Below are positions 57,768-59,798 of a stretch of DNA of 64,000 bases, piece by piece. The position numbers and the translations under genes are program-made. Every line of letters starts with the position of its first letter. The first letter of the stretch is position 1. The stretch spans positions 1,612,001 through 1,676,000 of the forward strand of contig NZ_JARRAH010000001.1 of assembly GCF_030553305.1 (NCBI RefSeq), in the 5' to 3' direction. Source of the DNA: Halomarina ordinaria. Lineage in GTDB: Archaea > Halobacteriota > Halobacteria > Halobacteriales > Haloarculaceae. The notes under the pieces were generated by a model. The model saw nothing but the letters and a program-made list of their open reading frames with translations, did not search any database and was not told where the DNA came from.

Positions 57768-58232
57768 TCACTCGCGTATCACCAGCACCGCGGTGTTCTC
57801 CCGGCGGTCGACGTACTCGCTTCCCGCCGGCGGTTTCACGTCGAAGGTGACCGTCCCGTCGGCCTGATTCGGTCCCAGTTCGGGCGCGAGCGAGAGCGTC
57901 GCGATACCGTCCGTACCCGTCCGCGCCGTCTCCACGCCGTCGAGGCTGGCACTCCCGGCGCGCGCGACGACGGTCGCGTCGGCCACCGGTTCGCCGTCGG
58001 CGGTGACGACGCGCACGTCCACGTCGCTCGGCCCCGGCGAGACGACCTCCGGTCGCGGCTCCGTGTCGAGTTCCGTGACGGCCAGCCCGTTCACCCCCGA
58101 CAGCATGTTCATCATGATGCTCAGCGTGGCGACGCCGACGACCAGCGCGACGACGAGGCGGATGGGGAGGCCCTCGATGGCGCGGTCGTCGTCGCGGAAC
58201 CGGTCGAACTGGTCGGGGAGTTCGAAACGCAT
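57768..58232 (-). CDS. membrane protein with carboxypeptidase-like (Ig-type) domain, DUF7382-like
   Basis: This 154-residue protein has a 25-residue cytosolic N-terminus (RFELPDQFDRFRDDDRAIEG), one helix (IRLVVALVVGVATLSIMMNML) and an extracytoplasmic beta domain. The beta domain has VRVVTADGEPVADATVVARAG, the CarboxypepD-regulatory pattern. It resembles type-IV-pilin-like or surface proteins in layout but lacks a prepilin cleavage site (G-[D/E] motif). The ATG at 58232 is inside a perfect inverted repeat that also covers the start of the divergent gene. Confidence 0.72.
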   Translation of the reverse strand: MRFELPDQFDRFRDDDRAIEGLPIRLVVALVVGVATLSIMMNMLSGVNGLAVTELDTEPRPEVVSPGPSDVDVRVVTADGEPVADATVVARAGSASLDGVETARTGTDGIATLSLAPELGPNQADGTVTFDVKPPAGSEYVDRRENTAVLVIRE

Positions 58233-58309
58233 GGGGGCGCTGGTCCCGCCATCGCACTTGAACGCTCGGCCGAAGGTTCATATTCGAACCCGGGACCAGC
58301 GCCCCCATG
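58230..58309. repeat. perfect 19-bp inverted repeat covering both divergent start codons
   Basis: CATGGGGGCGCTGGTCCCG at 58230-58248 is repeated exactly in reverse complement at 58291-58309. A 42-nt spacer separates the arms. The two ATGs are the first and last triplets of the arms, so both genes have the same 16 bases before their start codons. Mismatches begin immediately on both sides, so the boundary is sharp. The spacer contains a TATA-like TTCATATTC (58277-58285) facing the plus-strand gene. Confidence 0.9.
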
Positions 58310-59317
58310 ACGGTCCTCGGACGGGAGTACGACGGCGGGCCCACCGGCCACCTCGGGGCGTACCGGGCGCGCGACGGGAGCGACGGGAGCCGCGTACTGC
58401 TGGACCTTGACGGCCCGCACGCCGCGCTCGTCGTCGGCAAGCGGGGGTCGGGGAAGTCCTACACGCTCGGCGTCCTCGTCGAGGAGGCGGCGCGGGTCGA
58501 CGGCCTCGCGCCGGTCGTGCTCGACCCGATGGGGGCGTTCACCACCCTCGACGCGGACCCGGTCGGCGCACGGGTCGTCCGACCGCGGGTCCGGGCCGAC
58601 GCGCTCGCGCCGCGAGCGTGGTGCGACCTGCTCGGCCTCGACCCGACCACGGCGACGGGAGCGCTCGTCTGGCGGGCGGCCGCACGCGCCGACACGCTGG
58701 CGGGGATGTGCGCGTTCGTCGAGGGCGCCGACGCGGCGGGGGCGACGCGGCGCGCCGCGGCGAACCACCTCGCGCTCGCCGACTCGTGGGACGTCTTCGG
58801 CGACGCGCCGACGCCGTTCGACGGACGAGCGACCGTCCTCGACTGCTCGGGATACGACCGCGCGGCGACGAACGCCGTCTGCCGCGCGGTAGCGAGTCGG
58901 TGTTACCGCGACCGGGTCGAGGGGACGACCGACCGCCACCCGTGGCTGTTCGTCGACGAGGCGCACGTCCCCTTCGCGGGCGTGGCGGCGCCGGCGCTCC
59001 GCCGGCTGCTCACCCGGGGACGACAGCCCGGCGTCAGCCTCGTCGTCGCCACCCAGCGCCCGAGCGCCCTCCCGCCCGTCGTCGCCTCGCAGTCCGACCT
59101 CGTCGTGATGCACCGGCTGTCGAGTCGTGCGGACCGCGAGGCGATGCGCGCCGTCCGCCCCGCGGCCGTGCGTGGGACGCTCGACGAGCGGATGCCGACG
59201 GCCCCCGGGGAGGCGCTGGTGGTCGACGACACGAGCGAGCGCCTCCACGCCGTCCGGGTGCGTGAGCGCGAGACGCCCCACGGCGGCGAGAGTCCGCGCC
59301 TCTCGTCACCTCGCTGA
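58307..59317 (+). CDS. HerA-like / DUF87-type ATPase
   Basis: This 336-residue P-loop ATPase has Walker A GKRGSGKS (44-51), Walker B LFVDEAH (about 212-218), and the RQPGVSLVVATQRPSALPPVVASQSDLVVMHRLSS region typical of HerA/FtsK-like motors. An arginine-finger Arg lies in RLSSRADREAM. It lacks the HAS-barrel of full HerA and has no nuclease partner gene nearby. It may pump DNA or protein. The ATG at 58307 is inside the inverted repeat shared with the divergent gene. Confidence 0.83.
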   Translation: MTVLGREYDGGPTGHLGAYRARDGSDGSRVLLDLDGPHAALVVGKRGSGKSYTLGVLVEEAARVDGLAPVVLDPMGAFTTLDADPVGARVVRPRVRADALAPRAWCDLLGLDPTTATGALVWRAAARADTLAGMCAFVEGADAAGATRRAAANHLALADSWDVFGDAPTPFDGRATVLDCSGYDRAATNAVCRAVASRCYRDRVEGTTDRHPWLFVDEAHVPFAGVAAPALRRLLTRGRQPGVSLVVATQRPSALPPVVASQSDLVVMHRLSSRADREAMRAVRPAAVRGTLDERMPTAPGEALVVDDTSERLHAVRVRERETPHGGESPRLSSPR

Positions 59318-59357: not shown

Positions 59358-59798
59358 ATGTACGACAGCATCCTCGTGCCGACCGACGGGAGCGACCACG
59401 CCGAGGCCGCCGTCGACGAGGCGCTCGACCTCGCCGCGGAGACGGGCGCGACGCTCCACGTGCTGTACGTCCTCGACGTCCGGGAGCTCAGCACGCTCCC
59501 CGAGGAACAGTGGCTGTCCGTCGAGGAGGCGCTCGACGACGTCGGCGACCGGGCCGTCGGTCGAGTGGAGGAACGCGCCGAGGAGGTGGGAGTGTCGGTC
59601 ACCACCGCCGTCGAACCCGGTATCCCGAGCGAGACCATCGTCGACTACGCCGGGGACAACGACGTCGACCTCGTCGTGATGAGCACCCACGGCCGGACCG
59701 GCCTGAGCCACCTCCTCCTCGGGAGCGTCGCGGAGAAGGTGGTCCGCCGGTCGCCCGTCCCGGTGCTCGTCGTCCGTCCGGAAGCGGAGGAGGAGTAG
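59358..59798 (+). CDS. universal stress protein (UspA family)
   Basis: This 146-residue protein has the UspA pattern. It starts MYDSILVPTDGSDHAEAAVDEALDLA and has the nucleotide site STHGRTGLSHLLLGSVAEKVVRRSPVPVLVVRP near the C-terminus. The GRTG...LLLGS string indicates an ATP-binding type. Several Usp paralogues are normal in haloarchaea. It is 7 nt upstream of the convergent fluoride-channel gene stop. Confidence 0.93.
   Translation: MYDSILVPTDGSDHAEAAVDEALDLAAETGATLHVLYVLDVRELSTLPEEQWLSVEEALDDVGDRAVGRVEERAEEVGVSVTTAVEPGIPSETIVDYAGDNDVDLVVMSTHGRTGLSHLLLGSVAEKVVRRSPVPVLVVRPEAEEE

Follow-up and report, generated by a model that had tools for sequence, protein, structure and literature searches.

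A perfect inverted repeat in Halomarina ordinaria read as two back-to-back promoters of a candidate DNA-uptake or DNA-exchange regulon

Why should two divergent genes be separated by a perfect inverted repeat, each arm of which ends in a start codon? Such a repeat is found in the stretch of 64,000 nucleotides of the Halomarina ordinaria genome analysed here (hereafter, the window), between a gene of the DUF7382 family and a gene for a HerA-like ATPase (Table 1). A sequence-only reading had offered three roles for it: a bidirectional operator, a duplicated translation-control site, or a pair of arms for inversion of the 42-bp spacer. We propose instead that the repeat is part of a divergent promoter, that its octamer CGGGACCA marks a regulon, and that this regulon probably serves DNA uptake or exchange; to this explanation as a whole we assign a probability of about 0.8.

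The repeat itself is as first described. Its left arm (CATGGGGGCGCTGGTCCCG) is the exact reverse complement of the right arm over 19 bp, with no mismatch; each arm includes the start codon of the facing gene, and the identity of the arms confirms that the 16 nt upstream of both ATGs are the same. It was the only perfect inverted repeat in the 64-kb window with arms of at least 14 bp and a loop of at most 60 nt, and the longest one in eight dinucleotide shuffles measured 16, against the 19 bp of the real arms. The 80-nt palindrome spanning both arms is 80% complementary, and its DNA fold has a z-score of -6.5. A genome-wide repeat family was ruled out, as the 19-mer has no exact copies elsewhere in the genome and shows no excess at up to three mismatches (14 matches including the two arms; the reversed pattern gave 18).

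Table 1. Features of the divergent locus (positions in the window)
Feature	Position	Strand	Remarks
DUF7382 gene	57768..58232	-	154 aa; start codon ATG 58232-58230; Pfam PF24107, E=1.6e-25
Left arm of the 19-bp repeat	58230..58248	-	start-proximal part of the DUF7382 promoter
CGGGACCA element, DUF7382 promoter	58241..58248	-	about -16 to -9 if leaderless; same offset kept in relatives
TATA box TTCAAGT, DUF7382 promoter	58256..58262	-	overlooked in the sequence-only reading
Central segment CGCTCGGCCGAAGG	58263..58276	.	14 bp; abutting back-to-back BRE-like CGAGCG / CGAAGG
TATA box TTCATAT, HerA-like promoter	58277..58283	+	mirror position of TTCAAGT
CGGGACCA element, HerA-like promoter	58291..58298	+	in relatives CGGGACCA / CGCGACCA / CGGGGCCA, same offset
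Right arm of the 19-bp repeat	58291..58309	+	start-proximal part of the HerA-like promoter
HerA-like (FtsK-HerA superfamily) ATPase gene	58307..59317	+	336 aa; start codon ATG 58307-58309; PF01935

The DUF7382 protein has one predicted membrane segment and an Ig/CarboxypepD-like domain, and its profile matches comprised its own family and Ig-like domains, with nothing further. The AlphaFold2 model of its neighbour (pLDDT 89.6) found Sulfolobus HerA 4d2i as the top Foldseek match (E=1.8e-17), and the sequence carries the Walker motifs GKRGSGKS and LFVDEAH, in which GKRG-GK and DE-H are invariant. As modelled, this protein has a HerA translocase fold with Walker A and B, and as such is a member of the FtsK-HerA superfamily. 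It scores below the NCBIfam HerA equivalog cut-off (30.1 bits vs 970), and, with 22.7 bits against the CedD model (cut-off 600), it does not classify as a CedB/CedD-type ATPase.

Between the two genes, each half reads, from the centre outward, a BRE-like element, a TATA box, 7 nt, CGGGACCA, the 8 nt GCGCCCCC and ATG. The claim that a TATA-like element faces the ATPase only was wrong: the box TTCAAGT faces DUF7382 and mirrors TTCATAT, each lying 7 nt from its own CGGGACCA. The two boxes face outward, 14 bp apart, and the predicted starts are 75 bp apart, which is not the arrangement of a bidirectional promoter with a single shared TATA. Both 22-mers represent the exact module, and no third copy occurs in the window even at one mismatch (0.07 expected), while CGGGACCA alone is found there about as often as by chance (7 vs 4.8 expected). 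Thus, the signal lies in how CGGGACCA is coupled to TATA. Facing TTCAAG boxes in general showed no excess, their count being under that of the reversed control. Overall, we have very little doubt that the repeat is a compact divergent promoter composed of two back-to-back halves. The operator idea came close to right, in that both halves of this divergent promoter contain the same cis element. The BREs adjoin directly, which may impede assembly on one side while it takes place on the other.

Relative to ATG, the TATA boxes lie at -30 to -24 and the CGGGACCA elements at -16 to -9. Such a geometry fits leaderless transcription, and both transcripts are predicted to be leaderless. In Haloferax volcanii, 72% of protein-coding transcripts are leaderless, and the haloarchaeal BRE is given as CGAAA (PMC4983044). 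If the prediction is right, the arms would be promoter DNA rather than part of the mRNA, which makes the duplicated translation-control site unlikely.

The locus in relatives supports the promoter reading. The HerA-like gene is present in most of 60 related genomes, and DUF7382 lies divergently beside it in 22 of the 30 loci examined. Exactly 14 bp separate the two TATA boxes in 17 of the 22 genomes with the divergent pair, and also in two Haladaptatus species. In Haladaptatus, the left octamer is CGGAACCA and the right one either CGCAACCA or CGGAACCA; their likeness on both sides indicates that the element drifts together on the two sides. In relatives, a CGGGACCA-like octamer is kept at the same offset on the DUF7382 side, the HerA side being looser, and DUF7382 keeps the element also where HerA is not its neighbour. 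The sequence from octamer to ATG varies freely between most genomes, and the arms diverge outside CGGGACCA, so that they are not conserved in the way of recombination sites. A kept TATA spacing together with freely diverging arms is what would be expected of a conserved promoter pair, not of recombination arms.

The same module occurs far beyond this locus, as counted per genome in pattern searches with the reversed pattern as control. With a stricter TATA, TATA-N7-CGGGACCA was found 7 times in the own genome and 26 and 20 times in two sister genomes (reversed pattern, 0). A looser TATA raised these counts to 10, 41 and 39 and gave 1-10 in the other five Halomarina genomes, the reversed control remaining at 0 in all eight. 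When the gap was left free (0-30), 33 of the 37 TTCAAG...GGGACCA pairs in the genus had exactly 9 nt between them. A profile of 80 protein-type promoters comprised BRE, TATA and octamer at fixed spacing, with mostly 8-10 nt from the octamer to ATG or GTG; the full module reads TATA-N7-CGGGACCA-N8/10-start. The fixed phase between CGGGACCA and TATA, combined with the variable distance to the start codon, suggests that the reader contacts the TBP/TFB complex. This putative factor would read CGGGACCA at a fixed phase to TATA, and it may be a specialised TFB, or else a regulator that binds just downstream of TATA and contacts the initiation complex.

Sites collected by motif alone from about 20 genomes amounted to 128 distinct ones, and at 61 of them an ORF begins 8-10 nt downstream. 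Almost all of these protein sites (57 of 61) fall into ten sequence clusters, each represented in at least two genomes: DUF7382, HerA-like, pilus ATPase/DUF7310, DUF7283/pilin, Cas4-like, TctA-like, secreted PLD-domain nuclease, NucS-like (NucS_N + zinc ribbon), DUF3006 and a small coiled-coil protein. Domains assigned with Pfam and NCBIfam among the members include PF00437 (pilus ATPase), DUF7283, DUF7310, PLD, NucS_N, ParA/MinD, TctA and Pilin_N. In the opposite direction, from gene to motif, the element was found at 19 of 29 TctA-like orthologues and, by the strict rule, at 10 of 30 HerA-like ones (15 of 30 with the TATA relaxed to 4/5), while the promoters of a control aminotransferase from the window carried it in 0 of 24 cases. 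On this sequence evidence, a shared regulon under the CGGGACCA promoter, with co-regulation of its members, is very likely. The literature searched yielded nothing relevant on a CGGGACCA element or a haloarchaeal competence regulon; the element would expose a previously unreported shared control system in many salt-loving archaea.

Several members deserve a comment on their surroundings. A type IV pilus-like cluster of the own genome (C1:1525000-1532750; L173:1-7751) encodes DUF7310, DUF7311, a TadA-type ATPase, a TadC-type protein, DUF7283 and DUF7285. Its CGGGACCA promoters are strict or degenerate: the DUF7310 gene has the element itself, and the versions in front of the ATPase and DUF7283 genes are degenerate. 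Elsewhere in this genome (C1:396216-398490; L172:2217-4491), a lipoprotein with ComEC/Rec2-type metallo-beta-lactamase (E=1.3e-33) and lamin-tail domains is followed by two DUF3006 genes; a CGGGACCA promoter precedes the second of them. The own genome also has two TctA-family proteins (L302, C3:33185, and L303, C1:1066066): a canonical one (426 bits), on a small contig, and the divergent one of the regulon (205 bits), just past the ribosomal L10/L12 genes. A TctA-family protein is also encoded in Haloferax volcanii. A MinD-like gene carries the element in one Halomarina genome, and probably a second one does so with a variant octamer. At L178 (G003:C41:70-1392), the module variant GGGGACCA lies upstream of a frame starting MLAVT, a MinD-like start; this frame adjoins a RecA/KaiC-like gene and is divergent from an aspartate carbamoyltransferase-like gene. 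Finally, at L183 (G051:C7, about 59730-59759) and L191 (G019:C1, about 2722530-2722561), the module is followed by a second conserved sequence, AACTGAGTGACTCAA...CTCAGAAATCATGGGA, which, occurring in two families, is possibly another RNA or a leader.

Fifty of the 128 motif-sampled sites have no protein and begin a multicopy RNA (class b). Where protein genes have their start codon, class b copies start with [AG]T[GC]-NNN-TGA (ATC in some), continue with two interleaved helices forming an H-type pseudoknot, and mostly end with CTGTTCGCC or close variants. Over 23 aligned copies, 90% of cells pair and in 17 of 18 pairs both positions vary, a level of pairing and covariation reached by 0 of 500 shuffles; the rows were picked for a clear pseudoknot, which favours structure, so that a fairer yardstick is given by the slid controls, with 29-49% paired. 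Rfam, at the gathering threshold, gave no match in ten loci with class b copies. We rejected a coding explanation for these transcripts, as the paired arms covary and the frame stops after two codons. Copies in G000 lie at L070, L078, L083, L149, L152, L155-L158, L164, L166 and L168, with many more in L068-L117 and L182-L241. The family lies outside the window, yet it has the same promoter as the genes of the inverted repeat.

What the regulon might do is a matter of analogy. The mechanism of archaeal DNA uptake is largely obscure, and naturally competent archaea are not known to have a ComEC-type channel. Natural transformation of Methanococcus maripaludis depends on type IV-like pili, a lipoprotein thermonuclease, a MinD/ParA-like protein and a TctA-like protein, the last of which is the proposed DNA transporter, and a TctA homologue is also required in Methanoculleus (PMC10133366). 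Of this archaeal transformation set, the pilus ATPase, TctA-like and MinD-like genes are present here and linked by the shared promoter element, the MinD-like link being limited to two Halomarina genomes, one with a variant octamer. The TctA-like protein of the regulon appears related to MMJJ_13030 by family membership, not by tree. HerA-type ATPases, in turn, cooperate with pili when Sulfolobales and Thermus exchange DNA (PMC11868833). Since TctA-like, MinD-like and pilus proteins are needed for methanogen transformation, we lean, by a small measure, towards a set for DNA uptake or DNA exchange. The putative reader of CGGGACCA would then co-control the DUF7382, HerA-like ATPase, type IV pilus, TctA-like, nuclease and MinD-like genes, and the multicopy pseudoknot RNAs would fall under the same control. 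It is tempting to go further and suppose that CGGGACCA is the mark of a dedicated initiation factor and of a class-wide haloarchaeal competence regulon, including the pseudoknot RNA with its two-codon leaderless frame, but we would put this bolder version at somewhat less than even odds.

The main rival accepts the same anatomy and the same regulon and assigns them not to uptake but to DNA repair or recombination under stress. HerA-like, Cas4-like and NucS-like proteins are repair-type folds, the nuclease, HerA and MinD folds fit DNA repair as well, and the pili and Ced genes of Sulfolobus are themselves induced by DNA damage (PMC11868833). However, the pilus ATPase, the TadC-type protein, the pilins, the TctA-like transporter and the secreted PLD nuclease are surface-acting members, and the neighbouring ComEC-type lipoprotein also acts at the cell surface; for these reasons, we consider repair unlikely, if still the strongest competitor. 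The candidate haloarchaeal machinery for DNA uptake is scattered over the genome, and the element marks its parts in many genera. It would offer a list of parts to delete, a reporter for inducing conditions and a bait for the regulator.

A separate question is why the arms are identical to the last base. Both promoters carry CGGGACCA, the usual C-rich stretch and a start codon, and the 8 nt between CGGGACCA and ATG follow the own-genome consensus GCGNCSCC. When own-genome sites with the 8-nt spacing were compared in pairs, 5 of 120 were identical, the arms being one of these five; the match of the arms over these 8 nt is above typical (P about 0.016-0.04). Thus, the perfection of the repeat comes down to a mild coincidence in addition to a shared element. 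Alternatively, gene conversion or template switching, not function, could keep the arms identical between otherwise ordinary promoters. The mildly unusual 8/8 identity leaves some room for this, as does the sister genome G004, in which A replaces C at the same place in both arms (GCGACCCC). On the other hand, CGGGACCA stands at the same offset in dozens of unlinked promoters, GCGACCCC is likewise present at some of the unlinked members, the NucS-like and DUF7283 genes among them, and DUF7382 retains the element away from HerA. Gene conversion is therefore demoted from a main cause of arm identity to a minor and rather improbable rival that may have played a small role.

A still weaker alternative takes CGGGACCA for a general haloarchaeal core-promoter element without meaning for a regulon; core elements typically keep such a fixed phase to TATA, but the sites are few per genome and recur in the same gene families, and the control promoters lack it, which makes this highly improbable. 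The proposed inversion of the spacer by recombination between the arms, switching transcription between the genes, started from perfect arms around promoter elements, but it is rejected as extremely improbable, as a flip would merely swap two equivalent, outward-facing, mirror-placed TATA boxes, silencing and redirecting nothing, while the arms of relatives diverge outside CGGGACCA, their assemblies contain one spacer orientation only, and the genome-wide module accounts for the arms. The supposed two-state switch becomes a simple architectural fact on back-to-back archaeal promoters.

With known systems, the locus and its regulon share some features and differ in others. Bidirectional promoters of Pyrococcus furiosus (PMC6640164) likewise have symmetric core-promoter DNA and divergent transcription; they use one shared TATA in the order BRE-TATA-BRE, with starts about 50 bp apart and mostly antisense RNA products, whereas our locus has the order TATA-BRE-BRE-TATA, the wider predicted spacing of starts given above (75 bp) and two conserved genes as products. 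The HerA-like protein has the ATPase fold and Walker motifs in common with HerA translocases (Sulfolobus HerA 4d2i; Thermococcus HerA-NurA), from which it differs in its short length (336 aa), its sub-equivalog score and its conserved divergent neighbour DUF7382. If our reading is right, the regulon resembles the Ups/Ced system of Sulfolobales (PMC11868833) in combining co-regulated pili with a HerA/VirB4-type ATPase that moves DNA; unlike in that system, the HerA-like protein is far under the CedD cut-off, and DUF7382 matches only its own family and Ig-like domains. With the transformation set of M. maripaludis (PMC10133366), the common parts are a type IV pilus, a TctA-like protein, a MinD/ParA-like protein and a surface nuclease; the candidate haloarchaeal set has, in addition, HerA-like, DUF7382, Cas4-like, NucS-like and PLD proteins, and its members share a promoter element.
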